A stretch of DNA of 54,880 nt from an uncultured Bacteroidales bacterium (GTDB lineage: Bacteria > Bacteroidota > Bacteroidia > Bacteroidales > Bacteroidaceae): contig CACZXN010000012.1 in NCBI GenBank assembly GCA_902785075.1, positions 1 to 54,880 on the forward strand. The letters are read 5' to 3'. Position numbers and translations under genes: made by a program. Shown here piece by piece: positions 16,609 to 49,643 of this stretch (its first letter is position 1; every line of letters starts with the position of its first letter). The notes under the pieces were generated by a model. That model did no database searches. It saw only the letters and a list, made by a program, of their open reading frames with translations, and was not told the DNA's origin.

Positions 16609-16745
16609 CCCCCTAGAGGAAATTTCTGTTGCAGGTCGTGCAACCTATGTTGCAGGTCGTGCAACGTACGTTGCACGACCTGCAACAGAAAATACCCTTA
16701 AGGGAAAAAACATTTTCCCCTAGGGGCTGCAAAAAAAGCTAAGGG
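16609..16745 (+). repeat. Intergenic palindromic array, full copy 2 (third unit inverted)
   Basis: Three 15-bp units with a 21-bp period lie at 16629-16643, 16650-16664 (both TTGCAGGTCGTGCAA) and 16671-16685 (TTGCACGACCTGCAA, the exact reverse complement). Spacers are CCTATG and CGTACG. Palindromes CCCTTAAGGG (16695-16704) and CCCCTAGGGG (16717-16726) follow, with CCCTAGAGG at the left edge and CTAAGGG at the right. Units 2 and 3 together make a perfect 36-bp palindrome. Copy 3 at 49507-49643 is almost identical except for the orientation of unit 3. Confidence 0.9.
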
Positions 16746-16773
16746 TGAAACTAGAATTATTCTTCAACATTTA

Positions 16774-16834
16774 CCCCCATTTCATCGTAATCCAATCGTT
16801 TGATTAGAATATGAGAACAACGATGAAATGGGGG
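16774..16834 (-). terminator. Long inverted repeat, probable terminator of the Ig/HExxH peptidase gene
   Basis: CCCCCATTTCATCGT (16774-16788) and its perfect complement (16820-16834) form a 15-bp stem around a 31-nt loop that itself contains a small TAATC/GATTA stem. It sits 16 bp after the stop codon. The T-run on the minus strand is weak, so it may serve as a 3'-end stabiliser rather than a classical terminator. Confidence 0.6.
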
Positions 16835-16849
16835 ATTTTATGTATTATA

Positions 16850-18955
16850 TTACTTAACGAGGACTTTTTTACCATCCACGATATTCAAACCTTTTCGCAA
16901 GGTTCCTATACGCTGACCTTGAAGATTGAACATCCCAACCTTTTTTTGATAAAGGGAGGTGGATGATGTGATTTCCTCAATCGCAGAAAGGTCTAAGGTC
17001 GGATCAGTAATGTTGCGCTCATAGAAAAACCACTTCTGATAGTTGTCTGCTACCGCTATACACCCTTCGTTGAGGCGAATGCGGTAGTCCCAATGGTGTG
17101 ATCGCTGTGCTTCTCCGTTTTTATCGTCATAGATATAATCGGTATTTGCGACTACACAGATGATGACTCCATTAGCAGGACGATCCGTGATGTTCATTTC
17201 CATTTTTCCGCAATAGACAGGCTGGCTATAATATGCCTTACCGCTTTTGGTTCGATAACACAACTGTGCCTCCATGTGAGTATCTTCTGGGCGGAATTCT
17301 ACAACAACTTTATCTGATGCAGGATTGACATGTATAGGAATGAAGTTCGCTCCACTCCACCCAGGATTGGTTAGGGTATCTGGGGCTAACCACCCATTCA
17401 TATCATTCTGAACAGGATGAGCATAAGGTGTCATTCGCCATTTGCCACAGTTTATATAATAAGGTTCCCACTCTGGGCCTATGGATTGTCCGAAAGAATC
17501 AGATGCGGAATTGCGATATGATTTCGAACCATATCCAAAATCATAAATTGCCATTCGAGAACGATACTGAAGAATGACTTTTCGCATCGCTTCCTCACCG
17601 ATGGAATCGCCAATTCCTTCCAATACCCGATTGCTGCAATAGCGCCAAATCCAAGGCACACTGCCATTTCCGCAAAAGGCAGACAAAATGGTTGGGAAAG
17701 AATTTCCATATTGCGTTCCTCCCAGAATATTGCGCCAAGTACAGATTTGCTTGCCATCGCTCGTGTAGCGATTTACTCCTTGCGCCTGTGGACCACCAAA
17801 CGTTCCATCTTGGAGCCAACCAGAGTAGCATTCAATCGGCATGAAAGGCGCAAGAAATGGCCCACAATCCAGCCACCCTGCTCGTGCATTATCGCTCTCA
17901 ACCGAATTACCAGCCTCTTCTGCCTTTAACTGAGCCATCTTGCTCTGCGCCCATGTGTTGCCTGCCTCATGGAACCACGATGAGCCTTTCACACCAGGCA
18001 TATCAGCAAAAGTGGCATGAATACCCTCATGAATCATTGCGTCACGTTGGTAAGCTCCATCATTCCACTTCTTATCGGCATCTAGACGGAAACGGCTGAA
18101 TGGATACCAAGATGCCCAAACACATGCCCAATTCTGCCCATCAGCACGTGTGGAGCTCTGATAACCTCCCTGTTCGGACTGTGGCGTGTTATCATTGGTC
18201 AGACCAGAACCAAAAATATAGATAATGGACTTATAACCTTTACGTGCACTAAGGTCGGGCGGCCATCCCATTTTGTTTCGTAAGTAAGCAAACTCCTGAT
18301 CAAAATAGTCGACCATACGCTTTGCTGCTCCGTAGATAGTTGCAGAGTCCTTTCCGACTTCTGGGTTGAGGTTATCCCCCCAAAAGGCGGACCACCACTT
18401 TCCGACATACATGTTAGCAGGAGCCGTACCACCATTTGCAGTTCGCTTGTAGAACGTATGAACTTTCTGAGGCTCAGGCAGTTCTGGGTATTCCGTTCGG
18501 AAGTCATAACCAAAGCGAACAGTATGTGCTTCCCAGTCATAGAACTCGCCTCTATGCTCTTGTACATCAACGAAATAATTGTAATTCTTCACTACGATAG
18601 ACCCATCTTCCTGTGTCATACGGACTTTCAATGTGTACATACCTCCATCTTCACGAGTGATGTCTGTCAGAGTGAAATCAGCTGTCTTCATATAGCTGCG
18701 TAAACTTTTTCCCTTTTCGTTCTGCCAAGCATACTTCACGGAAACGGCTGTTTCTGGTTCTGTAGCCGATAGCGTAATGCTGCTACCTGCATCAGCTTGA
18801 ATATAGTTCTTTTGACTCCAGGCTTGTTCGTTGACTCTTACCTGAGGTTTTACAACCCAAGAATCCACATAGTCCTTACGCCCCTTAGTCTGTGCAAAAA
18901 CGGCTATGGACAAAAGGAGAAGGCATCCGATAAATACGTTCTTTTTCATTTTCAT
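16850..18955 (-). CDS. Secreted Ig-like domain protein with an HExxH metallopeptidase-like core
   Basis: A 701-residue exported protein with a signal peptide (cleavage after residue 21). Residues about 35-133 look like an Ig-like domain with a C-terminal D-G-G-M-Y-T-L-K motif. The following domain contains HEGIH (309-313) and, 16 residues on, HE (329-330), which would fit an HExxH...E zinc site. It may belong to a DUF of putative Bacteroidota hydrolases (DUF6055 came to mind, unverified). A beta-rich segment (about 545-640) precedes a short tail ending GLNIVDGKKVLVK that also ends two other exported proteins in this window. It is monocistronic, with a promoter at 18990-19020 divergent from the GH127 operon. 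Confidence 0.75.
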   Translation of the reverse strand: MKMKKNVFIGCLLLLSIAVFAQTKGRKDYVDSWVVKPQVRVNEQAWSQKNYIQADAGSSITLSATEPETAVSVKYAWQNEKGKSLRSYMKTADFTLTDITREDGGMYTLKVRMTQEDGSIVVKNYNYFVDVQEHRGEFYDWEAHTVRFGYDFRTEYPELPEPQKVHTFYKRTANGGTAPANMYVGKWWSAFWGDNLNPEVGKDSATIYGAAKRMVDYFDQEFAYLRNKMGWPPDLSARKGYKSIIYIFGSGLTNDNTPQSEQGGYQSSTRADGQNWACVWASWYPFSRFRLDADKKWNDGAYQRDAMIHEGIHATFADMPGVKGSSWFHEAGNTWAQSKMAQLKAEEAGNSVESDNARAGWLDCGPFLAPFMPIECYSGWLQDGTFGGPQAQGVNRYTSDGKQICTWRNILGGTQYGNSFPTILSAFCGNGSVPWIWRYCSNRVLEGIGDSIGEEAMRKVILQYRSRMAIYDFGYGSKSYRNSASDSFGQSIGPEWEPYYINCGKWRMTPYAHPVQNDMNGWLAPDTLTNPGWSGANFIPIHVNPASDKVVVEFRPEDTHMEAQLCYRTKSGKAYYSQPVYCGKMEMNITDRPANGVIICVVANTDYIYDDKNGEAQRSHHWDYRIRLNEGCIAVADNYQKWFFYERNITDPTLDLSAIEEITSSTSLYQKKVGMFNLQGQRIGTLRKGLNIVDGKKVLVK

Positions 18956-18989
18956 TTGTTAGTTAGTTTACAAGATATGGTTCACGATG

Positions 18990-19020
18990 CAAAGTTACAA
19001 CTTTCCCCATGATTGGCAGA
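18990..19020 (-). promoter_or_regulatory. Promoter for the Ig/HExxH peptidase
   Basis: On the minus strand TCTG (19017-19020, one mismatch to TTTG), 19 bp, then TAACTTTG (18990-18997) match the Bacteroidota consensus, giving a leader of about 30 bp. Confidence 0.65.
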
Positions 19021-19197
19021 TAGGGTTTTCGTCCAAAACTTGGTGGATTTCAATCCATCGCATATTCCATAACTTACGAGTACCATTTAGTTTTCAAGTT
19101 TCCAGAAAAAAGATACAAACGCACGCTTTTCTTAATAATAATTAAGGTGTAAATCAACTTCTCACAAAAATCGCATGATAGATAACAAATAATTTTG

Positions 19198-19205
19198 TAT
19201 ATTTG
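19198..19205 (+). promoter_or_regulatory. -7 box for the GH127-to-ispG gene run
   Basis: TATATTTG matches TAnnTTTG and lies 71 bp before the chosen ATG at 19277. This placement argues against the upstream in-frame ATG at 19223 as the start. Confidence 0.5.
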
Positions 19206-19276
19206 CAGACTAAAATGCGGTAATGCATAACAAAGCGTATTTAATGGTCATAAACAAAAAAACTACATATTTTAAC

Positions 19277-22200
19277 ATGAAAACATTAACAAACATGCTA
19301 CTTACTGCAGTTGCCATCATGGTGATGGAAATGATGGGCTGCATAAAGGTACAAGCTCAAAGCGAGTTGTACCCTCAACATTTTGATTTAAAAGAGGTGG
19401 TACTGTCCGATGGACCTATGCGTACCGCACTAATCACCAACTCACGTACACTGTTGCAGTATGATGCAGACCGTCTGATGACGCCTTTTGTGCGTGAGGC
19501 TGGACTTGCAAAGACAACTGATACGAAGAACAAATATTACAACTGGCTGACAAAGCACCCTACATTCCGCAACTGGGGTGACTCAGGATGGTCGCTCGAA
19601 GGGCATGTTGGTGGACACTACCTCAGTGCACTTGCGCTATCGTATGCCGCATTGTGTAATGATGATAGCCAATCAGAACTTGCTACTCAACTGAAAAAAC
19701 GATTGGATTACTGCCTCGATATCATGAAAGACTGTCAGGATGCCTACGAAGGAAACACAAATGGTATGGAGGGGTTCATTGGAGGTCAGCCTATCACTCA
19801 AATATGGACTGCTTTATATGCAAACAACATCAGTCCTTATAAGCAGTATGGCGGATGGGTACCTTTCTATTGTCAGCACAAAGTGCTTGCAGGACTAAGA
19901 GATGCCTACATCTATGCAGAAAGCGAACAAGCAAAGGAGATGTTCAGAAAGTTGTGTGACTGGAGTGTTAACGTGGTTTCAAAACTTTCGCAAAACGACA
20001 TGCAGAACGTGTTGGGTAATGAGCACGGAGGTATGAACGAAACCTTGGCAGATGCATATAAGCTATTTGGAGACAAGAAATATCTCACAGCAGCCAAGAA
20101 GTACAGCCACGCAGAAATGGTGAACGGCATGCAGTCGCTAAACACTACATTCCTTAACAACCGCCACGCAAACACTCAGGTGCCAAAGTACATCGGTTTT
20201 GAACGTATCGCCCAACTCGACCAAACAGCAACAACATACAAAAATGCCGCTAAGTACTTTTGGCAAGACGTGGTAAACAATCGTACGGTTTGTATTGGCG
20301 GCAACTCTGTGGATGAACATTTCTTAAATCAAAGTAATGGTGAACGATACATTAACAACTTGAACGGTCCAGAGACATGCAACACCAATAACATGATGAA
20401 ACTGACCGAGGACTTGTTCGACGATACACACGAAGCCAAATATGCCGACTTCTATGAAAATGCAATGTATAACCACATTCTGTCCACTCAGGATCCTCAA
20501 ACGGGCGGATATGTCTACTTTACAACACTTAGACCCCAAGGCTATAAAATCTACTCAAGGGTCAATCAAGGAATGTGGTGTTGCGTAGGAACAGGTATGG
20601 AGAATCATAGCAAGTATGGACACTTTATCTATACCCATAGGGATGCGACAAACACATTATATGTGAATCTATTCACAGCCAGCCAACTGAAGCATGATGT
20701 TTATGCACTCACTCAGACCACAAACTTCCCATACGAAGAATCAACTAAATTGACTATCGACAAAGATGGCGAATACGAAATTGCCATACGTCATCCATTC
20801 TGGGCAGGCGAAGGCTATTCCATAAAGGTGAATGGAGACCCTATCTCCAATTTACCAGCCAAAGGAAGAGCAACCTATGTGAAACTTGAGAAAACAACGT
20901 GGAAGAAAGGCGATGTCATCGAAATTGCATTACCGATGAATCTACGCATCGAAGAATGTCCTCTGCAAAAAGAATACATCGCGCTAAAATATGGTCCTAT
21001 ATTGTTGGCTGCCAAGACTTCGAATGCAGACTTGAAAAACGAATATGCAGGAGAGGGGCGTATGGATCATGCCCCAGGCAATATGGCAAACTCTATGTCA
21101 ATCGTAAGTTCTCCGCTGCTAATTTGCGAACGCAACGAAGTATTTGACCGTATCGAGAAAACTGGTAACATGAAGTTCAAGTTCGACGTTTCACGCAAAG
21201 ATACCCAGACAGAATGGCGGACTTTGGATCTTGAACCATTTTTCTCAACCCACCACTCACGTTATATGATATATTGGTATCAGCAGACAGCCAAGCAGTT
21301 TGCAGAAAGTTCGCTTGCTGCAGAAGAGGCAAAGAATCAGGCATTCCTTGCTCGTACCGTCGATTATGTAGGAACAGGCGAACAGCAGAGCGAAGTCGGA
21401 CATCAGGCTAAGTACTCCTCAAACTCGTCGTATGGAAGCTATAATGGTGAAATCTATCGTGACGTTCAGTCAGGAGGGTACATACAATATGTACTGGCAA
21501 ATAATGACAAGATTGCATCTGATATGAGTGTCATGTGTCGATTCACAACTGCAGACAAAGACAGAGTGGCAGCCATCTATATTGATGGCACGAAGATTGC
21601 TGATTATAAAGTACCATCGTCGTTCGCCACAGCAACGAACGGGTTCTTCAACTACGAATTCCCGATTCCTGACAAACTGCTAAAGAACGCAGATGGTTCA
21701 GTAAAGTCGCAGTTGACCTTCAAGATTGTTGCAAGCGGCAGCACTCCTTGCCCAGGACTTTATTACCTGCGACTAATGAAAGATTATAGCAAGCAATATG
21801 CTACTAATTACACATTTGTGGCAGGTGAATGGGCAAAGACTGGCGATGGAGGACGAGTATCACAAAATAACATCACTGCCAACTCTGCCGCCAATACTAT
21901 CACAGTGAAGGCATCTGGCAATAATAACGTCTGTCTGAGTTTTGGAACAGAGAAATACACTATCAACACCAACGATAAGTACTTCATGATTCGGGCAACA
22001 AATATAAGTACGAATGACGGCGCTTCTTTTTTGTGGTGGTTCAATGGGACAAATCATGGTTCAAGCGTGAAACCCACCCGAACTCAGACGCTTTCAGATG
22101 GAGACGTAGTGCTTTATTGGGACATTACAGCCAGCGGACTAGACGATAAATGTAATGGTCAGTCATACGCTTTCAGTCAAGGAAACACCATCTTTGGACT

Positions 22201-22393
22201 CACCTCGACAACTGGCACTTCTGTCATCAAATATATCGGATTCAATTCTGCAATGGAAATACCCAGCGGTATCAAAGAACTCTCAATGAATCCTTTTGTA
22301 AAGCAGGGCGTTTATAGTCTTAATGGCTATCGATTATCAAATGCCCAAAAAGGAATCAATATAATGAATGGAGAAAAAGTAATCATCAAATAA
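19277..22393 (+). CDS. GH127/GH146-family beta-L-arabinofuranosidase, exported
   Basis: A 1038-residue protein from the ATG at 19277, chosen because MKTLTNMLLTAVAIMV begins a good signal peptide whereas the ATG at 19223 would put 18 polar residues before it. The (alpha/alpha)6 core follows (SLEGHVGGHYLSALA, EHGGMNE, NGPETCNTNNMMK with E366, and MWCCVGTGMENHSKYG with C435-C436). In GH127/146 enzymes a zinc-bound cysteine acts as nucleophile and a glutamate as acid/base, which these residues fit. A beta-sandwich domain (about 520-700), two further beta modules and a C-terminal tail ending KGINIMNGEKVIIK complete it. It probably removes beta-L-arabinofuranose from plant arabinan, extensin or pectin side chains. 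It is unusually followed after 13 bp by housekeeping genes. Confidence 0.9.
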   Translation: MKTLTNMLLTAVAIMVMEMMGCIKVQAQSELYPQHFDLKEVVLSDGPMRTALITNSRTLLQYDADRLMTPFVREAGLAKTTDTKNKYYNWLTKHPTFRNWGDSGWSLEGHVGGHYLSALALSYAALCNDDSQSELATQLKKRLDYCLDIMKDCQDAYEGNTNGMEGFIGGQPITQIWTALYANNISPYKQYGGWVPFYCQHKVLAGLRDAYIYAESEQAKEMFRKLCDWSVNVVSKLSQNDMQNVLGNEHGGMNETLADAYKLFGDKKYLTAAKKYSHAEMVNGMQSLNTTFLNNRHANTQVPKYIGFERIAQLDQTATTYKNAAKYFWQDVVNNRTVCIGGNSVDEHFLNQSNGERYINNLNGPETCNTNNMMKLTEDLFDDTHEAKYADFYENAMYNHILSTQDPQTGGYVYFTTLRPQGYKIYSRVNQGMWCCVGTGMENHSKYGHFIYTHRDATNTLYVNLFTASQLKHDVYALTQTTNFPYEESTKLTIDKDGEYEIAIRHPFWAGEGYSIKVNGDPISNLPAKGRATYVKLEKTTWKKGDVIEIALPMNLRIEECPLQKEYIALKYGPILLAAKTSNADLKNEYAGEGRMDHAPGNMANSMSIVSSPLLICERNEVFDRIEKTGNMKFKFDVSRKDTQTEWRTLDLEPFFSTHHSRYMIYWYQQTAKQFAESSLAAEEAKNQAFLARTVDYVGTGEQQSEVGHQAKYSSNSSYGSYNGEIYRDVQSGGYIQYVLANNDKIASDMSVMCRFTTADKDRVAAIYIDGTKIADYKVPSSFATATNGFFNYEFPIPDKLLKNADGSVKSQLTFKIVASGSTPCPGLYYLRLMKDYSKQYATNYTFVAGEWAKTGDGGRVSQNNITANSAANTITVKASGNNNVCLSFGTEKYTINTNDKYFMIRATNISTNDGASFLWWFNGTNHGSSVKPTRTQTLSDGDVVLYWDITASGLDDKCNGQSYAFSQGNTIFGLTSTTGTSVIKYIGFNSAMEIPSGIKELSMNPFVKQGVYSLNGYRLSNAQKGINIMNGEKVIIK

Positions 22394-22406
22394 AAACAAA
22401 AAGATT

Positions 22407-22715
22407 ATGGAAATTACATCACAAAACTTTCAAGAATTATTGGCTCAGAACAAGCCTGTAGTTATGGATTTCTGGGCAACTTGGTGCGGACCTTGCAAGA
22501 AAGTAGCTCCGCTAGTTGAAGAACTCGCCTCAGAATACGAGGGACAAGCTATCGTGGGGAAGGTGAACGTAGAAGACGAAGACGACCTTGCTTCACAGTT
22601 TGGAATACGTAATATCCCAACTATCCTTTTCATCAAGAATGGTGAGGTTGTTGACAAGCAAGTAGGTGCATGCCCAAAAAGCGTACTTGAAGACAAGTTA
22701 AAAGCTCTGCTATAA
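22407..22715 (+). CDS. trxA: Thioredoxin
   Basis: A 102-residue protein of classical thioredoxin length with the active site WCGPC at residues 26-30 and the cis-proline loop RNIPTILFIKNG. There is no signal peptide, so it is cytoplasmic and reduces disulfides in enzymes such as ribonucleotide reductase. It starts 13 bp after the GH127 stop, with no separate promoter visible. Confidence 0.96.
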   Translation: MEITSQNFQELLAQNKPVVMDFWATWCGPCKKVAPLVEELASEYEGQAIVGKVNVEDEDDLASQFGIRNIPTILFIKNGEVVDKQVGACPKSVLEDKLKALL

Positions 22716-22750
22716 TCTCAAATCGTCAAATCACAAATTGGAGAATTATT

Positions 22751-23068
22751 ATGGCTGCAATAGACGATGAACTGATGAAAGCCGCAGAAGAAGATGCACA
22801 GGAAGTTGCTTTCATCCTCAACGAGCTACCTCAAGACTTGAAAGAAAAGTTCACTGAGGAAGATATCTATTACTTCATTGATGTCATGCTTGAATACTTT
22901 TCAAACGCACAAGCCGACAAAGATGGATATATTGATATTGACGTAAATGATGTGGCGCAACATCTTGTAAAACAAGCAAAGAACGATCAAATGGGCAATT
23001 TTGACCCTGAAGATGTGTTCTTCGTGGTTCAGGCAGAATTAGATTACAACGAATCATTAGACAACTGA
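22751..23068 (+). CDS. Small acidic conserved hypothetical protein
   Basis: A 105-residue, strongly acidic, soluble protein without a signal peptide or known motif. It looks mostly helical, with a D-K-D-G-Y-I-D-I-D segment near residues 58-66 that resembles a single calcium-loop but lacks an EF-hand partner. It starts 35 bp after trxA and ends 1 bp before the membrane peptidase gene, so translation may be coupled. I do not recognise a named family; similar small proteins are, to my recollection, conserved next to these genes in Bacteroidales. Confidence 0.75.
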   Translation: MAAIDDELMKAAEEDAQEVAFILNELPQDLKEKFTEEDIYYFIDVMLEYFSNAQADKDGYIDIDVNDVAQHLVKQAKNDQMGNFDPEDVFFVVQAELDYNESLDN

Positions 23069-23069
23069 C

Positions 23070-23804
23070 ATGAATCCTAATTATTTTATAGGTGATGGCT
23101 ATGGAGGTATTTCTGCTTCAGCCCTTTATTGGATTATATTCATCGGCATCGCACTCGCTAGTTGGCTTGTGCAATGGAATTTGAAGAGCAAATTCAAGAA
23201 ATATTCTCAAATCCTATCATTCAAAGGCTTAACAGGAAAGGAAACTGCAGAACTGATGCTAAAAGATTTTGGCATCACAGATGTAACAGTACAGAGTGTC
23301 GCAGGTCAATTGACAGACCACTACAACCCTATCAATAAAACCCTAAACTTAAGTGAAGGCGTATATGAAAGCAACAGCATTATGGCTGCTGCAGTAGCTG
23401 CTCACGAATGTGGACACGCTGTTCAACATGCTATGTCATACGGTCCACTGACTTTACGTTCGAAGTTAGTTCCAGTAGTCAGCGCTACATCAAGGTGGAT
23501 GACGTGGATTTTGCTGGGCGGTATGTTGCTACTCAGCTATACAGGCAATCCTTACGTATTAGGTGTGGGTGTAGTTCTCTATGCCCTTACTACGATCTTC
23601 TCGCTTGTTACCCTTCCTGTCGAGATAGACGCTAGCCGCAGAGCCGTCAAGTGGTTAGACTCAAGAGGTCTGACAGATACAGACACTCACAATCATGCCG
23701 TTAGCGCTCTCCGTGCAGCAGCCTACACCTATGTGGTAGCGGCACTTAGTTCACTTGCCACACTCTTCTATTATATACTCATGTTACTTAACAACCGTAG
23801 ATAA
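23070..23804 (+). CDS. Membrane zinc metallopeptidase (YugP-like, Zn_peptidase_2)
   Basis: A 244-residue membrane protein with an N-terminal helix (about 18-35), then HECGH at 112-116 in the AAHECGHAVQHA segment typical of the neutral zinc metallopeptidase 2 family, and three more helices (about 140-230), including the family's V-E-x-x-A-S-R-R-A segment (VEIDASRRA). Length is normal for the family. Its substrates are unknown; it presumably acts on membrane or envelope proteins. It lies between the small acidic protein (1-bp gap) and rpoN (immediately adjacent). Confidence 0.9.
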   Translation: MNPNYFIGDGYGGISASALYWIIFIGIALASWLVQWNLKSKFKKYSQILSFKGLTGKETAELMLKDFGITDVTVQSVAGQLTDHYNPINKTLNLSEGVYESNSIMAAAVAAHECGHAVQHAMSYGPLTLRSKLVPVVSATSRWMTWILLGGMLLLSYTGNPYVLGVGVVLYALTTIFSLVTLPVEIDASRRAVKWLDSRGLTDTDTHNHAVSALRAAAYTYVVAALSSLATLFYYILMLLNNRR

Positions 23805-34780: not shown

Positions 34781-36322
34781 ATGAAGAAATCCATTTTATT
34801 AACTACTACATTACTGGTCCTCGCCTTGCACTGCTTGGCAGGACCAGTTGATTCTGTAAAGGCTCTTCGCATAGCTGAACGATTGCTGCAGAAGCCTATG
34901 ATGGCTCCTATGCCTATCAGCAAGTTCTTTGCATCTGATGCAAAGGAACAGGTTCTTGTGCGATTACCTAACAACATTTTCCTTGTTACTGCAACCGACG
35001 AGAAAAGTTTTGCTATCATCGCATCTGATGGAGAGAATCAACGTGTAATCGGTTATTCCAAAACCAACGCTCCCAAAAAGGGCGAACCTATACCCGAAGC
35101 GTTAGCTCAGATTCTTAGCTCAACATGGGGACAAGGCATGCCTTATAATTACTACACACCAGCAGGCAATCCCGTTGGTTGTGTTGCAACAGCAATGGCA
35201 CAGATAATGTATTATTGGAAATGGCCTAAACAAGGAAAAGGACGTTCCAGCTATCGACTCAACGGAGAGGTCTTATCTGTAAACTTTGCCAACAGCCATT
35301 ATGACTGGGACAATATGCACGACACCAATGATGAAAACTCATCTTCTGAGTCGCAGCAAGCCGTAAGTAAGTTGTGCTATGATTGTGGTGTTGCTATCCA
35401 GATGCAATACTCTGCCGAAGGTAGCGGAACCTATACTCAATATGTCTTGAGAGCACTTCACACATTTTTTGGCTATAGAGCCTCAACACTACAAGAATTG
35501 CATCGTGAGTTCTTTCCATCTAAAGAAGCGTGGAATGCCGTGATAACCGACGAATTAGTTGCAGGTCGTCCAGTTATCTATGCAGCAACAGCACCAAAAG
35601 GCGGCCACGCATTTGTGCTTGACGGATATGATAAAGATGGTCTTTTCCATGTGAACTGGGGATGGGATGGAAATTATAACGGCTATTATGATGTATTGAT
35701 ATGTAATGTCAATGGTTATACATTCGATGCAAACCATCGTATCATTACAGGAATTGAACCCGATTATGAAGGTACTGATACTAAGCCACAACAATTAAGA
35801 CTTGTATTAGACAAAGGACCGACAATTGTCAGTTCAGAGGCCATCACCACGGGAACACCATTCACTGTCAATCCTGGTTATATCTACAGTTTAAACTATC
35901 TTAATGCTGTCTGGAAAACGGCAATAGCACTCTACGACATCAAAGGCCATTTTATCGATATCATCTGTTCAAAACCCTTTTCTGACGGACTGCCATATGG
36001 TTATGGATTCGATGAACGTACAATGGAAGTAACAATTCCTGAAAACACTCCAAATGGTTATTACACCCTTCGTACTGTCATTCGTCAGGATGGCTATGAT
36101 ACATGGATGCGACCATTTGTGAAGAACGGAGAGGAGATAGACATTATGTTCATTCAGGTAGAGAACGGCAACGTTACAGCCCCGGTTTCCCCTCCAACGG
36201 CTATCAACGAGATCACGACAAATACATCATCTCATGTTGTTTACAACTTAAAAGGCCAACAGCAACGTAATTTACAACGTGGCATCAACGTCGTAAACGG
36301 AAAAAAGATTCTAGTGAAGTAA
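34781..36322 (+). CDS. C10-family cysteine peptidase (streptopain/interpain-like)
   Basis: A 513-residue preproprotein: signal peptide (1-20), an N-terminal prodomain (about 22-115, with S-D-A-K-E-Q-V-L-V and F-A-I-I-A-S-D segments typical of Spi/C10 propeptides), and the papain-fold domain with nucleophile C134 (GCVATAMAQIMYYW) and H276 (GGHAFVLDGY) before V-N-W-G-W. A beta domain (about 340-460) and a tail ending G-I-N-V-V-N-G-K-K-I-L-V-K follow. The closest described relatives are interpain A and streptopain. As last gene of the SusCD operon (20-bp gap) it probably digests proteins at the cell surface, and the resulting peptides are taken up by the transporter. Confidence 0.94.
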   Translation: MKKSILLTTTLLVLALHCLAGPVDSVKALRIAERLLQKPMMAPMPISKFFASDAKEQVLVRLPNNIFLVTATDEKSFAIIASDGENQRVIGYSKTNAPKKGEPIPEALAQILSSTWGQGMPYNYYTPAGNPVGCVATAMAQIMYYWKWPKQGKGRSSYRLNGEVLSVNFANSHYDWDNMHDTNDENSSSESQQAVSKLCYDCGVAIQMQYSAEGSGTYTQYVLRALHTFFGYRASTLQELHREFFPSKEAWNAVITDELVAGRPVIYAATAPKGGHAFVLDGYDKDGLFHVNWGWDGNYNGYYDVLICNVNGYTFDANHRIITGIEPDYEGTDTKPQQLRLVLDKGPTIVSSEAITTGTPFTVNPGYIYSLNYLNAVWKTAIALYDIKGHFIDIICSKPFSDGLPYGYGFDERTMEVTIPENTPNGYYTLRTVIRQDGYDTWMRPFVKNGEEIDIMFIQVENGNVTAPVSPPTAINEITTNTSSHVVYNLKGQQQRNLQRGINVVNGKKILVK

Positions 36323-41469: not shown

Positions 41470-41471
41470 AT

Positions 41472-42814: not shown

Positions 42815-45292
42815 CTATATATTGGCGATAGACATAATGTTAGCGAAAACACCGGCAGCCGTAACTGCTGCTCCTGCACCATAGCCCTGAATCAGCATAG
42901 GATATTCCTTATAGCGCTCAGTAGTGAGTAGCACGATGTTGTTCGAACCTTCCAATCCGTAGAATGGATGTCCATAAGGCACCTCCTTTAGGGCAACGCT
43001 GGTCTTGAATGACGACGGATCGTTCTCATCAGCTTCCATCGTGGCAACAAAACGCCAGCGCTTGTTCTCTGCCTCCAAGACCTTACGACGAGCCTCAAAG
43101 TCTGCATCTAATTCTGGCAAACGCTTCCAGAAATCCTCTATGCTACCTTCAAAGTAACTGTCTGGTACAAACAAATGCTTCTCCACATCGTCTTGTTCTA
43201 CCTTGTAGCCAGCTTCACGAGTCAGAATGACCAATTTGCGGATTACATCCGTACCACTGAGATCTATACGAGGATCCGGTTCACTATAACGCTGCTCCTT
43301 AGCACGCTTTACGGTTTCTGAGAATGGTACATCTGCTGCTATTTCGTTGAAGATAAAGTTGAGCGTACCACTCAAGATTGCTTCTATTTTCAGAATCTTA
43401 TCGCCTGAGTTACATAAGTCGTTGATGGTGCCGATGATAGGCAGACCCGCTCCTACATTGGTCTCATAACGGAACCACACACCTCTGTCTCTGGCTGTTT
43501 GCTTCAGTTTCAAATAGCTGTCGTAATCGCTTGAAGCCGCAATCTTATTGGCTGCTACTACTGATATATTGTGTTCTAAGAATGTCTGATACAGCATTGC
43601 AATCTGACGACTTGCAGTACAATCAACGAAGACGCTATTGAAAATATTCATCTTCACGATCTCGTCGCGCATATGTTCTGTATTAGCTGGGAATCCAGCA
43701 CGCAGAATCTTCTCGTAGTTGTCCAAGTCGATTCCATCGCGATCTAGCACGAAGTTATCAACATCTGAAATGCCGACCACATTCAGTTTTAAGCGTCTCG
43801 ACTGCATCAGGAACTGCTGCTGAGTACGGATTTGCTCAAGTAGCATACCTCCAACCGTTCCGATACCACAGATAAAGAGGTTCAGCACCTTATATTCTGA
43901 AAGGAAGAATGAATCGTGGAGCACGTTGAGCGACTTACGCAGGAACTTGCCGTCCACTACAAACGAAATATTCGTTTCTGAGGCCCCCTGAGCACAAGCT
44001 ATCACAGAGATACCCGAGCGTCCCAAAGTACCAAACAACTTACCAGCGATACCTGGAGTCTGCTTCATATTCTCACCCACGATAGCGATGGTAGCCAAGC
44101 CGCTCTCTACTAACATTGGGTACATTGCCCCTGTCTCTATCTCCTTGGCGAATTCAGCGTTCAACACCTCTGCTGCAGCAGCTGCATCCTCATCGCGCAC
44201 ACCAATACTGGTGGAGTTCTCCGAAGAAGCCTGAGATACCATAAATACAGAGATTCCCTTATTAGCCAATGTGGTGAAGATACGGCGGTTCACACCAATC
44301 ACACCCACCATAGAGAGACCCGTAACGGTAATCAGCGAAGTACCTTTGATACTCGATATACCCTTGATGGGCTTATTGTCATCTTCAATCTTATCTTTGA
44401 TGAGGGTTCCTGGATGCCCAGGGTTAAAGGTATTTTTTACCTTGATAGGTATATTCTTCACGCAGACAGGATAGATGGTCGGTGGATAAATCACTTTCGC
44501 ACCGAAGTTACAGAGCTCCATTGCCTCTACGTATGAGAGTTCATTGATTGTATAGGCGCTCTTAATCACTTTCGGATCAGCCGTCATGAAGCCGTCCACA
44601 TCTGTCCAGATTTCCAATACTTCGGCATCCAACACAGCTGCGATGATAGCGGCAGTATAGTCACTTCCACCACGTCCCAAGTTGGTTGTCTCGTGGGTAT
44701 CACGGTCGCGAGCAATGAAGCCAGGTACCACATAAATAGACCTTACCTCTGATTTCTTGCTGTTGATCTCGGCAAAGGTCTCCTTTACCAATTGCTTGGT
44801 CAGCTCTGTGTCGAGTACATGTCGGCCCTGTTTCTTCTCCGTACGAATAAAGTCGCGGCTGTTCATGCGAACACCGTTTTTCACCATACCTGCCACGATA
44901 TGCGAACTCAGACGCTCACCATACGACACGATGGTGTCCTCCGTCTTTTTCGACAAATCGTGAACCAGATACACACCATAGAGGATGCTCTTCAACTGGT
45001 CGAAGAGCTGATCTACATTGTTGATTAAGTCTACGCGCTTATTGATGTCGTGGATGATAGTGTCTATCATCAAGTGGTGGCGTCTTACCATCGCATCAAA
45101 TTCTTCGCGATAGTGCTCGTCGCCCTGTTTTGCCATCTGCGACATTGCAATCAGCTTGTCTGTAATGCCGTCGAGTGCGCTTACTACTACTATGACAGGT
45201 TGCGTCCGAGCCTCTGCCTCCACAATCTCTTTTAAGCTCAAAATGCTTTTTACGGAACCTACGGACGTTCCGCCGAATTTCATTACTTTCAT
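42815..45292 (-). CDS. thrA: Bifunctional aspartate kinase / homoserine dehydrogenase
   Basis: An 825-residue ThrA that catalyses the first and third steps from aspartate to homoserine. The kinase domain (about 1-290) has K-F-G-G-T-S-V-G-S. Two ACT regulatory domains (about 310-460) include the V-T-G-L-S-M-V-G-V segment. The dehydrogenase domain (about 465-825) has the NAD(P) loop G-I-G-T-V-G-G and the S-G-T-L-N-F-I-F motif. The start at 45292 (MKVMKFGGTSVG) is preferred; the longer frame has an arginine-rich 23-residue extension over the leader. Aspartate semialdehyde dehydrogenase, needed between the two activities, is not in the window. Feedback inhibition by threonine via the ACT domains is expected. 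Confidence 0.97.
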   Translation of the reverse strand: MKVMKFGGTSVGSVKSILSLKEIVEAEARTQPVIVVVSALDGITDKLIAMSQMAKQGDEHYREEFDAMVRRHHLMIDTIIHDINKRVDLINNVDQLFDQLKSILYGVYLVHDLSKKTEDTIVSYGERLSSHIVAGMVKNGVRMNSRDFIRTEKKQGRHVLDTELTKQLVKETFAEINSKKSEVRSIYVVPGFIARDRDTHETTNLGRGGSDYTAAIIAAVLDAEVLEIWTDVDGFMTADPKVIKSAYTINELSYVEAMELCNFGAKVIYPPTIYPVCVKNIPIKVKNTFNPGHPGTLIKDKIEDDNKPIKGISSIKGTSLITVTGLSMVGVIGVNRRIFTTLANKGISVFMVSQASSENSTSIGVRDEDAAAAAEVLNAEFAKEIETGAMYPMLVESGLATIAIVGENMKQTPGIAGKLFGTLGRSGISVIACAQGASETNISFVVDGKFLRKSLNVLHDSFFLSEYKVLNLFICGIGTVGGMLLEQIRTQQQFLMQSRRLKLNVVGISDVDNFVLDRDGIDLDNYEKILRAGFPANTEHMRDEIVKMNIFNSVFVDCTASRQIAMLYQTFLEHNISVVAANKIAASSDYDSYLKLKQTARDRGVWFRYETNVGAGLPIIGTINDLCNSGDKILKIEAILSGTLNFIFNEIAADVPFSETVKRAKEQRYSEPDPRIDLSGTDVIRKLVILTREAGYKVEQDDVEKHLFVPDSYFEGSIEDFWKRLPELDADFEARRKVLEAENKRWRFVATMEADENDPSSFKTSVALKEVPYGHPFYGLEGSNNIVLLTTERYKEYPMLIQGYGAGAAVTAAGVFANIMSIANI

Positions 45293-45358
45293 ATTCCTAT
45301 GCAATTTATCTTTCCGAATGGTTCCCCTCAACGAGCGGGGCTTTCTCCATTGGCGGTG

Positions 45359-45366
45359 CAAAGGTA
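45359..45366 (-). promoter_or_regulatory. -7 box for the threonine operon
   Basis: On the minus strand TACCTTTG matches TAnnTTTG, 67 bp before the thrA start. The ~60-nt leader contains a CCCC...GGGG hairpin (45325-45341) but no leader peptide rich in threonine codons was found. Confidence 0.55.
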
Positions 45367-45466
45367 CAGAATTTTATTTAATCTGAATGCATTTATGTCG
45401 ATTTATTTATGTTTTACATAAATCCTACTACGGAATCTGTCCAATTAGCATACCTCTTATGACAAA

Positions 45467-45496
45467 ACAAAGGGAATACACACGCATTCCCTTTGT
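45467..45496 (-). terminator. Terminator between the lipoprotein/TMEM43 pair and thrA
   Basis: A perfect 11-bp stem (ACAAAGGGAAT 45467-45477 / ATTCCCTTTGT 45486-45496) around an 8-nt loop, followed on the minus strand by TTTTGTC, 49 bp past the stop of the lipoprotein gene. Confidence 0.8.
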
Positions 45497-45545
45497 CTTT
45501 TCGTTCATACTGTTGCCCTATCAAAAGAGGCTTCAACCACACGAG

Positions 45546-46127
45546 TCAAACTCCTGTATTGTTTTCAATAAACTCCTTCATGTGAACCTTGTAGTCATAC
45601 ACATATTCAGTATAGTTTTCGTCACCTTGTAAGAAGTTATGAATCAACCACTTGCCGTCCACCTTCTGCATCTCCCACTTAATCAGGATATTATCGCTTT
45701 CAGCAGGTTTCAAGATGAAGTAAACGTCTGCTGTCGAATCGTTCGAAAACTCCACACTCTTGAATTCGGTAGTAAAAGGAATATTGAACGAACCCATTGT
45801 CCACACATTACCACCTTCAGCAAAATAGACGTTTTCATCGTTGCCCGATTTCAAATTCTCCGATTCTATCGAACGCAGTTGATTATACACCTCTTGCCAT
45901 TCCTTCGTGGTATACAGTTCCTCCAACGAGTTAGCGTAGTCGTTTCCTTCGCTGTCGTTAGCCCAGCGTAGATTCACTTCTTTATAGATCTCATCTACGA
46001 GTGCCTTGATGGTTTGTTCTTCTTGCTGCTTATCGAACTCAGGCTCCGACGTTTGTGCTTGTTTCTGTCCAGAGTTACAACTTGCTAGCAGAAGTGTGGC
46101 AAACAGTACGATATAGATTTGTTTCAT
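45546..46127 (-). CDS. Lipoprotein of unknown function (DUF3828-like)
   Basis: A 193-residue lipoprotein with a good lipobox (L-L-A-S-C, Cys17) and a low-complexity Q/E-rich linker (about 20-40). The soluble part (about 45-190) looks like an NTF2-like or DUF3828-type alpha+beta fold, with W-E-M-Q-K-V-D-G-K-W-L-I-H-N-F as its clearest segment. No catalytic motif is visible. It starts 11 bp after the TMEM43-like gene ends and shares its transcript. Confidence 0.8.
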   Translation of the reverse strand: MKQIYIVLFATLLLASCNSGQKQAQTSEPEFDKQQEEQTIKALVDEIYKEVNLRWANDSEGNDYANSLEELYTTKEWQEVYNQLRSIESENLKSGNDENVYFAEGGNVWTMGSFNIPFTTEFKSVEFSNDSTADVYFILKPAESDNILIKWEMQKVDGKWLIHNFLQGDENYTEYVYDYKVHMKEFIENNTGV

Positions 46128-46138
46128 ACCTTATTATT

Positions 46139-47404
46139 TTATGCTTCGGCAGCTGCTTCGTCTTTCTTGCTGGCCAACTGCTTAATCTTGTTCTTTCCAC
46201 CGAAGGCAAAAATCCAGATGAGCAGACCTGCGATGACAAGCAAGATGATTCCGAGTACAGGACGATAGAATATCCATGCAATAGCGATTACAAGGAGTGA
46301 CCATACAATACCTACGACTGTACAAACGAGACCTACACCCCATCCAACAATGTTGGCAATGAATGGAACAACCTTCAAGAGGGTTTCGATGATGCCGAAG
46401 ATACCTCTCAGACCTGCGATAACGAGGACAATACCCAGCAGACGTAATACCCAAGTCAATATGGTGTTACTCATGTTTTCTGCATCAAAGATCTCTTCAA
46501 TTGACTGCTTACCCATTACCAAAGTCTGGAAAAGCTCACCATTCTTTGCCTTGTAAGCCTTGAAGGTGTCTCCTGTAACCTGTGAAATGATTGTTACTTT
46601 CGCAGGAACGACCTTAGTGAACGTCACACGTACATCACCAATCTGAGGTACTGATGGGTTTACACCATAATAGAGCACATTATCTTTCACGTGAATATAC
46701 TGATATCCGCTGTCTATATCTGTTGAATCAACAACTACAGCTGGTTTACCGTGGAAGCGTACATAAGCATCTTTGGCATTCTTGTCTAACTGACTAAGCA
46801 GGTTGTCGCTGATTGTCAGATCAAAATCCTCAGTCGATGAAATGCTAGTAATCAGGCTTGAGTTCAGCATATAAGCACCGAAGTTGACGTTCTGTGCCCA
46901 CTGTTCATTCTCCTCGACATTTGCCAATACTGCATTTTTGTTCTGATAAGCTGGGTCCTCGAAGTCTGCTGAATTTTGAGGAGTGCTTACCCATTCCGTC
47001 GTATAGGTATAAGTGTAGGTGGTCTCTTCACCTCCGCCGAGTTTGTCCTCTGTCTCTTTGTGTTCGTGCTCAACCCACTGATAGTACTCCACAGTACGCT
47101 TAATACCTATTGCAGTTACTCCTACGCCATAGTCTTTGTCAATCAAAGAGTCTGTCGTTGTAGCCATTGCAGTTGCGCAAACCAATTCACCTTCCAGCGA
47201 AGCATCTTTCTTGTCCGGGTTTGGCATTTCAACACATACTTCTTGAGCTTCTTCAAGCATGTCTGCAGTTCTTACTGCTCTACCTTCGTTCCACCACAGC
47301 AGTATTGTGGCACCGATAAAGAGAATGAAACCTCCTCCAATACCAGCACACGAGCTTTTTACGCGTGAGCCATAACTTGTTTTTGTTGTCTTTGTGTAAG
47401 CCAT
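46139..47404 (-). CDS. TMEM43-family membrane protein
   Basis: A 421-residue protein with one N-terminal membrane helix (about 15-37), a large hydrophilic extramembrane region (about 40-305) and three to four C-terminal helices (about 315-410). The layout and the G-G-G-F-I-L-F-I-G-A...L-W-W-N-E-G-R-A-V signature match TMEM43/LUMA, a family first known from animal nuclear-envelope proteins and also found in bacteria, where the role is unclear. The start at 47404 (MAYTKTTKTSYG) is chosen because the upstream in-frame codons lie between it and the promoter and read as polar leader. Two adjacent helices are rich in G and V. Confidence 0.85.
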   Translation of the reverse strand: MAYTKTTKTSYGSRVKSSCAGIGGGFILFIGATILLWWNEGRAVRTADMLEEAQEVCVEMPNPDKKDASLEGELVCATAMATTTDSLIDKDYGVGVTAIGIKRTVEYYQWVEHEHKETEDKLGGGEETTYTYTYTTEWVSTPQNSADFEDPAYQNKNAVLANVEENEQWAQNVNFGAYMLNSSLITSISSTEDFDLTISDNLLSQLDKNAKDAYVRFHGKPAVVVDSTDIDSGYQYIHVKDNVLYYGVNPSVPQIGDVRVTFTKVVPAKVTIISQVTGDTFKAYKAKNGELFQTLVMGKQSIEEIFDAENMSNTILTWVLRLLGIVLVIAGLRGIFGIIETLLKVVPFIANIVGWGVGLVCTVVGIVWSLLVIAIAWIFYRPVLGIILLVIAGLLIWIFAFGGKNKIKQLASKKDEAAAEA

Positions 47405-47543
47405 TTTCTTTGTGCTTTTAATGTTAATATTGTGTAATTGATTGTTTCGACTGTTCTGTTCCTTGAGTTGCTGACCCTTCTTTTCGTTCATCATCCGCTC
47501 TCTAAGATACCATCTTCAACTTTTTTATATCTTAACGACACTG

Positions 47544-47551
47544 CAAAGTTA
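47544..47551 (-). promoter_or_regulatory. -7 box for the TMEM43-lipoprotein operon
   Basis: On the minus strand TAACTTTG matches the consensus. It predicts a leader of about 130 nt to the start at 47404. Confidence 0.55.
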
Positions 47552-47717
47552 CAAATTATTTACCATTTAACCACTTACTAGTCACTTTTTTCGAATAATC
47601 CGCACTATTTTGAGCCAAAAACTGTCGAAATACACCTTTATAAGCCATTTTGTGAGAAAAAACAAGGCAGCACATGAAAAAAAGAAGAATTTAACAAGTG
47701 TTATTATTTTTTTGTTG

Positions 47718-47725
47718 TAACTTTG
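47718..47725 (+). promoter_or_regulatory. -7 box for the rightward lipoprotein operon
   Basis: TAACTTTG matches the consensus, about 100 bp before the ATG at 47828. Confidence 0.55.
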
Positions 47726-47827
47726 CAGTCAGAAAAGAACAGGTTACCAAACCAAATCAACATTCAATCGCATCAATAACATCAAAAAACTAAAACAATG
47801 TCTAACCCTTTAAAAACTCAAACGATT

Positions 47828-48421
47828 ATGAAAAAAGCATTATTCAGCTTCGCCATTGTAGCAGCAAGCATGCTGATGTTTTCTTGTGGTAACACAGGTA
47901 ACAATAACGGGCCATCATTCGCAACAGATTCTTTGACTTACGACCACTATTCTTGGTTCACCTTGAAGGCATCTGTTCCTCAGGGAAAAGGTTATGTGAT
48001 TACTGAAGATCAGCCAAAAGCAATCGCAGATGTTGCTGTCAGCAGTATGTTCTATATTGTAGGAGACAAGGTCGTGATTGCAATAATCGATTTCGACAGT
48101 TACACCATCGCAGAAAGAAAAGAATTGCTCCAGAAAAATGGACTCGAGAAAGAGAAACAAGGCATCGAGGATGTCAAGGTTGCTGGTCGTAATGCCTTCC
48201 GTTGGCCTTATATGTTGTTAGAAGGAAATGAGCTGACTAAATACGGCTACTACTATGAAGTAGATTTCTCCGAGTACAGCCAAGCTGGTTGGGGAGGTTA
48301 CAACATGTTCGAATTGATAGTTTACCCTGCTGATGGTCAACCCAATAAAATCGACGACCTGCTCAACGACGAAGAAGTGAAGTACATACTCGACAGTCTT
48401 GTCTTTACTCCAAGAGAATAA
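47828..48421 (+). CDS. Lipoprotein of unknown function
   Basis: A 197-residue lipoprotein from the ATG at 47828, chosen because MKKALFSFAIVAASMLMFSC forms a standard lipoprotein signal (Cys20), whereas the ATG at 47798 adds ten polar residues in front. The mature part (about 35-195) looks like a single alpha+beta domain ending in L-D-S-L-V-F-T-P-R-E. No family is recognised. It is followed after 7 bp by a secreted-protein gene in the same operon. Confidence 0.75.
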   Translation: MKKALFSFAIVAASMLMFSCGNTGNNNGPSFATDSLTYDHYSWFTLKASVPQGKGYVITEDQPKAIADVAVSSMFYIVGDKVVIAIIDFDSYTIAERKELLQKNGLEKEKQGIEDVKVAGRNAFRWPYMLLEGNELTKYGYYYEVDFSEYSQAGWGGYNMFELIVYPADGQPNKIDDLLNDEEVKYILDSLVFTPRE

Positions 48422-48428
48422 TAGCGAT

Positions 48429-49388
48429 ATGAAACATTCCGTTCTATTCATACTATGCCTGTTTACCCTTGCTGGTATGCAAGCACAGGGCATTCGTACA
48501 GGGTCGAAATGGAACGTAGGGTCTATGGACTATACGGCTAAAGTCAACTCCGACCGCACCATCACGTTCTCAGCTACGGCTGAAGGTGAAGAATTGGCAT
48601 TCCGACTCACTCCCACACCAGGCAAGACTGACGAATACACCATTGGTACCGACCCCAATAGCGATGGATTCAACCCCTTCGAGAAATCAACCCGAGCCAA
48701 GTTCATCAATCAACAAGGCTGGCGACTCCTATGTCTCTACGACGCAAACAACTATCTGCTCAACATACTCGATGCCACACAGAGTATAAATGGAGAGAAA
48801 GTAGCAGTAGGCAAGTGGATGGAACAAATCTCGGGAAAGTATATCGACCACTATGGCGACACTCTCCAAATCGGCCACGAAACTATCTACGAACGGGGTG
48901 TGGCACGAGCCACCTATGAGAATATCACCTTCAACGGATGCGTAACAGGAGTGGTCAAGATAAGCGGACTCACCAACCTCGAAGGCAAATGGGAGATTGT
49001 ACAAACCCTCAACGGACTCACCCTCTATCAGGTAGAGCAAGACGAATACGGTATGTTCACCCGTAAGGGAGAGAAAGAAACCCTTACTTGGGTCAACTCC
49101 GAACCACGATTCGGATATGCCAACCGCATCCTGCTCAACGACCGTGAGTTCTCCAAACTGAAGAAATCCACACTCCGCATCATGCGAAACTCAATACTGG
49201 CTGTCCATAGCTACATGGTATCCTCGCCCGACCTCGTTGAGTATTTCGGCAACCAGCCTTGGTTCAGTCCCCGACCCTCGAACGACGATGTGTACGACGA
49301 ACTCACACTCGTGGAACGTCTCAACATCGAACTCATCAAAGCAGAGGAAAACAATCCCAATCACGACGATTATATCAAAGAGCCTTAA
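48429..49388 (+). CDS. Secreted protein of unknown function
   Basis: A 319-residue protein with a signal peptide from the ATG at 48429 (MKHSVLFILCLFTLAGMQAQ). This start is 7 bp after the previous stop; the ATG at 48399 lies inside that gene. The mature region alternates beta strands and ends in a helical, acidic segment (about 265-319). No catalytic motif or family is recognised. Pairing with the upstream lipoprotein suggests a joint envelope role. Confidence 0.75.
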   Translation: MKHSVLFILCLFTLAGMQAQGIRTGSKWNVGSMDYTAKVNSDRTITFSATAEGEELAFRLTPTPGKTDEYTIGTDPNSDGFNPFEKSTRAKFINQQGWRLLCLYDANNYLLNILDATQSINGEKVAVGKWMEQISGKYIDHYGDTLQIGHETIYERGVARATYENITFNGCVTGVVKISGLTNLEGKWEIVQTLNGLTLYQVEQDEYGMFTRKGEKETLTWVNSEPRFGYANRILLNDREFSKLKKSTLRIMRNSILAVHSYMVSSPDLVEYFGNQPWFSPRPSNDDVYDELTLVERLNIELIKAEENNPNHDDYIKEP

Positions 49389-49433
49389 CCCAAACAGTTA
49401 ACATTTTTTTGATTTACAACTTACAGATTGAAG

Positions 49434-49459
49434 GCAGCCTCACGGGGCTGCTTTTTTTT
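49434..49459 (+). terminator. Rho-independent terminator
   Basis: GCAGCC (49434-49439) and GGCTGC (49446-49451) form a GC-rich stem followed by eight T residues, 45 bp after the stop of the secreted-protein gene. Confidence 0.88.
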
Positions 49460-49506
49460 CTCCCTATTCATAAATTATTCAATCTCCCAATCTATTTGTT
49501 TTAAGT

Positions 49507-49643
49507 CCTAGGGGAAATTTCTGTTGCAGGTCGTGCAACCTATGTTGCAGGTCGTGCAACGTACGTTGCAGGTCGTGCAACAGAAAATACCCTTAAGGGA
49601 AAAAACATTTTCCCCTAGGGGCTGCAAAAATTCCCCTTAGGGA
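49507..49643 (+). repeat. Intergenic palindromic array, full copy 3 (all units direct)
   Basis: Three identical units TTGCAGGTCGTGCAA lie at 49524-49538, 49545-49559 and 49566-49580 with the same CCTATG and CGTACG spacers as copy 2. CCCTTAAGGG (49590-49599), CCCCTAGGGG (49612-49621) and a final CCCCTTAGGG (49633-49642) follow, with CCTAGGGG at the left edge. The distance from unit 1 to the first CCCTTAAGGG is 66 bp in both copies. Unit 3 has the opposite orientation to that in copy 2. Confidence 0.9.

Follow-up and report, generated by a model that had tools for sequence, protein, structure and literature searches.

Arrays of short near-palindromic units that lie dispersed between the genes of an uncultured Bacteroidales bacterium are probably tandem operators, spaced by two helical turns, for proteins of the HU-winged-helix type. 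We give this reading, in which the binding is deduced from sequence and the arrays serve both autoregulation and other chromosomal sites, a probability of about 0.77. The arrays came to attention in a stretch of 54,880 nucleotides, here called the window. Each array would be a row of two to four near-palindromic 15-bp putative binding sites 21 bp apart, and because 21 bp corresponds to two turns of the helix, the bound proteins would align on one face of the DNA. The winged helix would read the half-sites, and the HU part may bend or bridge the DNA. The gene of the protein, P0001, would be autoregulated, and the dispersed arrays may be nucleoprotein sites shaping local chromosome structure or transcription.

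Anatomy of the arrays

The window contains two near-identical arrays that differ by the exact inversion of unit 3, as the first-pass annotation had reported with correct sequences and coordinates (Table 1). The window has seven matches to TTGCANNNNNTGCAA, where shuffled sequence would give 0.13; the seventh, at 34929, is solitary and outside both arrays.

Table 1. Coordinates of the parts of the two arrays in the window
Feature	Position	Strand	Remark
Array 1, left arm; CCCCTAGAGG-type palindrome, TTTCTG at end	16607..16628	+	common to the 16 arrays, with changes
Array 1, unit 1	16629..16643	+	+ orientation
Array 1, unit 2	16650..16664	+	+ orientation
Array 1, unit 3 = TTGCACGACCTGCAA, inverted unit	16671..16685	-	- orientation
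Array 1, right arm: CAGAAA, palindromes CCCTTAAGGG and CCCCTAGGGG, then GCTGCAAAAA	16686..16735	+	
Array 2, left arm	49507..49523	+	
Array 2, unit 1	49524..49538	+	+ orientation
Array 2, unit 2	49545..49559	+	+ orientation
Array 2, unit 3 = TTGCAGGTCGTGCAA	49566..49580	+	+ orientation
Array 2, right arm	49581..49630	+	

The flip is restricted to the 5-bp core, as had been claimed, but it does not alter the whole core: three of the five bases change, because core bases 2 and 4 complement each other. Only with the flipped unit do units 2 and 3 form a perfect palindrome, again in agreement with the first-pass annotation. In array 1 this palindrome spans 36 bp, or 40 bp counting neighbours, whereas the corresponding stretch of array 2 is 85% complementary. 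Folding of a 69-base span gave -34.2 kcal/mol for array 1 against -24.5 kcal/mol for array 2 with DNA parameters, and -53.0 against -41.8 kcal/mol with RNA parameters.

In the whole genome (G000) 16 arrays were found, the window pair included, and none when the two-unit pattern was run backward as a control. Spacers of 6 bp separate the units. The arrays are flanked by inverted-repeat ends and are intergenic by naive ORF calls, although a naive ORF of 167 aa spans one of them, L069.

HU-winged-helix genes and their upstream arrays

Judged from sequence, the most likely cognate protein of the 16 arrays is P0001, in which an HU-like domain is joined to a winged helix and whose gene belongs to the same genome (G000:C50). 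An array, L073, lies 84 bp before this gene and 17 bp behind TATCTTTG, and every one of its units, just past the promoter of the presumed regulator, has the minus orientation. By its Pfam score P0001 belongs to the HU-HIG family (PF18291; 59.2 bits, gathering cut-off 26.2), whose description mentions fusion to a wHTH, and the L112 orthologue scores 50.5 bits with the same profile; against TIGR01201 (HU_rel) P0001 reaches 58.2 bits, under the NCBIfam cut-off of 68.6. The AF2 model, with a mean pLDDT of 93, contains a winged helix, and its Foldseek matches include chains of the HU/IHF and of the winged-helix type, with 4fmr as the best (E 5.8e-4, TM 0.40). HU-HIG proteins were reportedly predicted by Burroughs et al. 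in 2017 to act against invading elements. A phage or plasmid source of the protein was rejected, phages giving one weak match and plasmids seven, and a scan of IMG/VR with the own-unit pattern gave no matches.

The association of gene and array recurs among homologues. A repeat with a period of 21-23 bp is present upstream in 77 of the 86 homologous genes that have at least 150 bp of upstream sequence. Setting aside seven genes met earlier, several of them via their arrays, leaves 79 chosen by protein similarity, and self-arrays were found in 70 of these, against 5 of 238 control ORFs. The controls come from naive ORF calls, so that many of their windows are coding, where repeats are rarer, and the five positives may include further genuine arrays. 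By the period measure the other 9 of the 79 have no self-array. Unit palindromicity in 70 period-21 arrays was 5.33 of 7, against 3.84 of 7 after shuffling of positions, and 55 of the 70 outscored at least 95 of 100 shuffles; several upstream repeats of period 22 or 23 are poor palindromes. Most of the orthologues and paralogues that were examined thus own an array in a comparable place, with a spelling that differs from that of P0001.

Within the genus, arrays of the P0001 kind occur in all four genomes with a close orthologue and in one, G013 (69% complete), of the 13 without. In the other 12 the searched spellings were absent beyond stray mismatch matches, the TTCGT spelling having been searched in eight of them. 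A blind prediction made for five loci, L108 included, proved correct for three genomes, those of L110, L113 and L117 (the self-array of L117 being weak, score 13), and at L129 the result was consistent, via a 47% homologue.

Unit spelling also follows the recognition helix to some extent. Among close orthologues, an ASRELK helix goes with TTG units at three of three loci and an AS[ANSY]DLK helix with TTC units at seven of seven (one array weak), counts that refer to loci in an unresolved tree and not to independent changes of helix and unit. The distance between units correlates with that between helices once HU distance is removed (partial r 0.215; none of 2000 permutations as high). This correlation is modest, and since a stretch of the HU domain, residues 68-80, reaches an equally high score, common descent may account for some of it. 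The rule of TTG and TTC units is confined to close orthologues, because paralogues with R in the helix can have TTTC units, as L199 does with R at the same position; L309, with an ASRDLK helix, has no clear array.

Dispersed arrays and rival explanations

For the searched spellings, copies of the array are dispersed in their own genome. For a second array family in G000, TTTCRTAGTAYGAAA, the cognate gene is G000:C15. Searching other genera for unit pairs with at most two mismatches (controls 0-2) gave 124 matches in G089, 23 in G130, 16 in G095, 10 each in G074 and G023, and 4 in G061; the same search gave none in G075, G000 and G010. A scan of named genomes returned 26 stretches, three of which (Fibrobacter, Leptolyngbyaceae, Betaproteobacteria) were discounted as likely coincidences. 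The dispersed arrays do not clearly favour promoters: among 24 arrays of both families, 11 were scored as co-directional, 8 as divergent and 5 as convergent, the last class including the array W2, scored on a doubtful ORF.

It is improbable, though the strongest of the alternatives, that the arrays are passive MITE-like or BrickBuilt-like repeats spread by a transposase, one of which the HU-winged-helix gene merely acquired. The arms common to the copies, made of inverted repeats and palindromes, would suit such an element, as would the right-arm palindromes found without arrays in relatives and the position of W2, which is absent from G001, where the neighbouring gene differs. A passive element does not, however, account for the differently spelled array that most homologous genes own at the equivalent place, nor for two positions, each kept in three species while the units differ, one ahead of purL in G000, G001 and G013 and the other upstream of a BlaI-like gene in G000, G013 and G014 (at the latter locus gene sharing between species extends to one side only).

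By description, the closest known systems are the HU-HIG family and an element of Porphyromonas gingivalis, BrickBuilt. BrickBuilt, named also in PMC5771137, is described as a MITE/minisatellite in 19 copies with a 23-nt period, a leader, a tail and inverted-repeat ends, and BrickBuilt_14 adjoins PGN_0872, a DNA-binding protein listed under PF00216, the HU family in Pfam (PMC4596501). Compared by that description, the two have in common a host among the Bacteroidales and tandem repeats scattered between genes, with a similar period and inverted-repeat ends, but in place of a spacerless 23-nt tandem repeat we found a 21-bp period made of a 15-bp palindrome and a 6-bp spacer. The parts of PMC4596501 that describe the element mention neither a cognate HU-winged-helix protein, nor one array per protein, nor conserved positions with a new spelling. 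PINSR of Prevotella intermedia, a 188-bp repeat present 177 times in one strain and 184 times in another, with about three quarters of its sites common to both, resembles the arrays in being intergenic and from Prevotella (PMC4755523); it differs in that its description there includes no terminal inverted repeats, and section 3.4 names no cognate protein.

Less probable still is that the arrays are transcribed hairpins, part of a leader RNA, small RNA or terminator, with paired changes at unit ends that preserve RNA stems. The predicted hairpins are strong, and 25 of 70 self-arrays start 13-17 bp behind TAnnTTTG and hence would be transcribed. Against this, the motif stands solely between array and gene in 30 of the 70 (a side that has no shuffled control), 15 of the 16 arrays have none within 40 bp, L073 being the exception, and the spacing is constant near 21 bp. 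An Rfam scan of the window at gathering score found tRNA only and left its arrays without a match. The FopS/RbpB small RNAs, multicopy in Bacteroides, were also rejected, as their description in PMC11697453 includes no tandem palindromes.

Unit inversion and significance of the arrays

Exact inversion of a single unit recurs through the genome. When orientations were tabulated for the 49 units of the 16 arrays, 45 were exactly plus or minus and the three bases altered by a flip nearly always switched jointly. Such joint changes are explained better by hairpin inversion, or by conversion with a different unit as donor, than by stepwise mutation; a core change by stepwise point mutations was rejected, one possible intermediate (CGTCG) being present among the 49 units. 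The orientation pattern equals that of the nearest copy by flank sequence in 1 of 16 arrays, and flips are therefore faster than point mutation. No array of the 16 breaks an order of plus then minus, two units of L063 being unassignable and the two-unit L070 without a sure direction, but we do not rely on this rule because L333, of the second family, runs -, +, +, - by central base.

The site-specific inversion switch proposed in the first-pass annotation is very improbable: single-unit inversions do recur and shift hairpin strength by about 10 kcal/mol, but the unit arms are just 5-6 bp around 5 bp, the copies show all orientations (unit positions 1, 2 and 3 each occur in both, and the array at the presumed regulator's gene is all minus), and two strains have equal unit orientations at one locus. 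At this single comparable locus, where the second strain (L124) is 99% identical over 5.4 kb, the sole difference within the array is one 6-bp spacer, explained as an inverted spacer with one substitution or as two substitutions.

The best reading of the inversion would be a near-neutral flip of a quasi-palindromic putative site. A flipped unit would be a reversed copy of an almost symmetrical site, probably produced when the template is switched within the hairpin or when one unit converts another. We propose that it persists because both orientations can still be bound, and orientation should matter little because the units resemble symmetric dimer sites. Short, recurrent loop flips are also known from plastids, where loops of 5 and 9 bp invert among relatives (PMC6342102); there they lie in introns between inverted repeats of 18-19 bp, while here the loop is part of presumed binding sites that form a tandem array in a bacterium.

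HU-like fusion proteins are widespread in genomes of the Bacteroidaceae, many of which encode them, and no functional description of these proteins was found in the literature searched. That search returned no report of HU-HIG binding sites, and the domain name appeared only in an annotation line of PMC11035120. In the mostly open-access literature on HU-type proteins no paper linked them to upstream arrays, which is weak evidence of novelty. If our reading is correct, the array upstream of a gene would predict the binding site of its protein, and a genome scan would then give its other sites; matched pairs of protein and site would form a natural series for a recognition code, and the arrays would hint at a role for BrickBuilt-like repeats. 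More tentatively, the HU-winged-helix proteins of the Bacteroidaceae may form a set in which every member has a private address, a helically phased palindrome array placed both beside the gene for that protein and at other chromosomal sites, up to dozens in number; a change of the recognition helix would then lead to all addresses being re-spelled at the same positions. Were this true, parallel chromosome-organising systems would coexist within one cell and diverge between species.

Arrays of the source genome

Both of the near-identical arrays that the first-pass annotation described in the window are present. Their difference in unit 3 is, as claimed, an exact inversion, but it does not alter the whole 5-bp core: because core bases 2 and 4 are mutual complements, just three bases change. 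The flipped form makes the stronger hairpin: DNA folding of matching 69-base spans gave -34.2 versus -24.5 kcal/mol.

A two-unit pattern search of the source genome (G000; 105 contigs, 2.9 Mb, 86% complete) found 16 arrays, and the backward control of the same pattern found 0. Judging by the named relatives, the host is probably a rumen Prevotella relative. The arrays hold 2-4 units at a period of 21 bp, the single exception being one 20-bp step in array L065, and CCTATG and CGTACG predominate as spacers. The arms end in TTTCTG / CAGAAA or near variants and contain palindromes like CCCTTAAGGG and CCCCTAGGGG; such pairs of palindromes also occur in relatives with no array adjoining. On the stored strand, the 49 unit cores read GGTCG in 31 cases, CGACC in 14 and otherwise in 4. 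No common function is evident among the flanking genes (20 of the 32 nearest flanking proteins scanned).

A second dispersed family, TTTCRTAGTAYGAAA, occupies eight loci, that of its own gene, an HU-winged-helix paralogue, included. The pattern TTAGSCTAA, drawn from self-arrays (repeats upstream of the HU-winged-helix gene itself) in other genera and the sole spelling scanned genome-wide there, was matched at a 21-bp period, with at most 2 mismatches, by the following numbers of unit pairs: 124, 23, 16, 10, 10 and 4 for six of the seven genomes that supplied it, and 0 for the seventh (G075), for G000 and for G010; its backward controls gave 0-2.

Loci of arrays and related repeats
Feature	Position or loci	Genome or contig	Remarks
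Array copy 1	16609-16745	window	unit 3 flipped
Array copy 2	49507-49643	window	
Genes flanking the arrays		G000	recG, DJ-1-like gene, purL, release-factor gene, prephenate dehydratase, MoxR-like gene, others
TTTCRTAGTAYGAAA family	L328-L335	G000:C7, C13, C25, C26, C14, C48, C1, C15	cognate gene at C15
Array-less palindrome pairs	L019-L022, L026-L028, L038	relatives G006, G013, G014, G010, G001	
purL array spelling		G000, G001, G013	TTGCA units; TTGCTCGCCCTGCAA type; TTCGT type, respectively
rplS-like locus arrays	L329 from 3000; L284 from 4055		4 units each; same place, different paralogue type, two species
Chance-looking 21-bp repeat	L119, 2026-2061	Fibrobacter MAG	flanking gene 45% identical to gene near array L074

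Self-arrays of HU-winged-helix genes

P0001, the presumed cognate protein of the TTGCA units, has 223 aa and scores as HU-HIG (Pfam). Its AlphaFold2 model (mean pLDDT 93; alignment of 74 sequences) has winged-helix helices at residues 158-172, 177-184 and 188-200, and its top-scoring solved structure is 4fmr of Bacteroides vulgatus, titled just "putative DNA-binding protein". Upstream of the P0001 gene, at 84 bp, lies array L073, which follows TATCTTTG at a distance of 17 bp. Among 11 other close orthologues, in genomes of which the majority were first met through their arrays, an upstream array is clear in 8, weak in one (L304), absent in one (L309) and cut by the contig end in one (L134).

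Our 87 homologous genes comprised 80 of the 99 places that protein similarity gave within the family, the lowest-scoring ones and fragments making up most of those dropped, together with 7 already known, several of them via their arrays. In the 350 bp upstream, the top self-repeat period was 21 bp in 63/87. A score of at least 14 at period 21-23 was found for 77 of the 86 genes with at least 150 bp upstream (70/79 without the seven) and for 5 of 238 control ORFs, which were naive ORFs of at least 200 aa drawn from the retrieved loci after removal of known arrays, with windows that are partly coding DNA; the 21-bp score never exceeded 11 in 870 shuffles. Unit sequence varies gene by gene. In the 70 period-21 arrays, units average 5.33 palindromic positions of 7 against 3.84 when position-shuffled, and 55 arrays are more palindromic than at least 95 of 100 shuffles.

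Upstream of some HU-winged-helix genes (L216, L232, L238, L248, L259, L263) the repeat period is 22 or 23 rather than 21. These repeats come nearer than the 21-bp arrays to the 23 of BrickBuilt and are less palindromic, several of them poorly so.

The motif TAnnTTTG occurs within 60 bp before 28 of the 70 arrays, at 13-17 bp in 25 of these (shuffled expectation 5%), solely between array and gene in 30, and at neither place in 12. At L111, L128 and L130 (RUG036, RUG10880), dispersed arrays have this promoter-like motif 17 bp ahead, as at the protein's own gene, and some may form transcripts of their own.

In the close orthologues that have a self-array, TTG units pair with the helix ASRELK (3/3) and TTC units with AS[ANSY]DLK (7/7; the array of L304 is weak), an association with Fisher p 0.008, kinship disregarded. 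ASRELK is found as well at L134, in a genome (G003) with dispersed TTG arrays. Across 63 non-redundant proteins, unit and helix are correlated given HU distance (partial Mantel r 0.215; 0/2000 permutations as high), and a window in the HU domain scores equally in this comparison. These sequence associations support, but do not prove, reading of the units by the winged helix.

Conserved positions and orientation turnover

An array stands before purL at the same place in G000 and relatives G001 and G013, both flanking genes being common to all three. Another lies ahead of a BlaI-like gene in G000, G013 and G014, in three spellings, with common genes on one side only. In G014, the regulator's self-array lies between the regulator gene and purL. 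Behind an rplS-like gene, the array is of the second family in G000 and of the TTCGT family in G013. In the purL leader at L286 and L296 there is another, separate repeat, whose units resemble GAAGTTAACGGCCTA; the region upstream of L286 scored at period 22 in the control scan.

Unit orientations, tabulated as had been proposed, with the spacers serving as ruler, vary among arrays, the patterns including ++-, +++-, +++, +--, --- and ----. With closeness measured over 67 flank bases, the pattern matches that of the closest copy in 1 of 16 arrays (L065), and arrays W1 and L074, 4 flank bases apart, nevertheless read ++- and ----. Unit orientation thus turns over faster than the flanks mutate.

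One locus was compared in two strains. Between L062 and L124 (CACZUS010000061.1, in MAG RUG12969), 98.97% identical across 5,363 bp, units are oriented alike and one spacer differs, CCTATG in L124 versus CATAAG in L062. The usual spacer in that reading direction, CATAGG, is the exact inverse of CCTATG; inversion plus one substitution would explain the difference, as would two substitutions. A pattern search found no other such array in RUG12969, so the L124 contig may have entered that MAG as contamination from a different strain of the source species. Flips probably originate in hairpins, like the plastid loop inversions of PMC6342102, or else through conversion by another unit; the symmetry of the outer half-sites would let flipped units be tolerated.

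Proposed pairing of protein and private array

These comparisons establish the architecture of the arrays, their self-location, dispersal and conserved positions, and the recurrence of flips. HU-HIG proteins and dispersed tandem arrays in Bacteroidales (BrickBuilt) were already known, separately; the pairing of one private array with each HU-type protein was not found in the literature searched. BrickBuilt may be another case, as the position of BrickBuilt_14 suggests: it adjoins a gene that PMC4596501 lists as encoding a DNA-binding protein of PF00216. Each cognate protein would bind its arrays, HU-winged-helix genes would be autoregulated, and the dispersed arrays would have a structural or regulatory role. 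The mixed placement of dispersed arrays of both families (six --, five ++, eight -+ and five +-, one of the last doubtful) agrees no less well with chromosome-structuring sites than with ordinary promoters.
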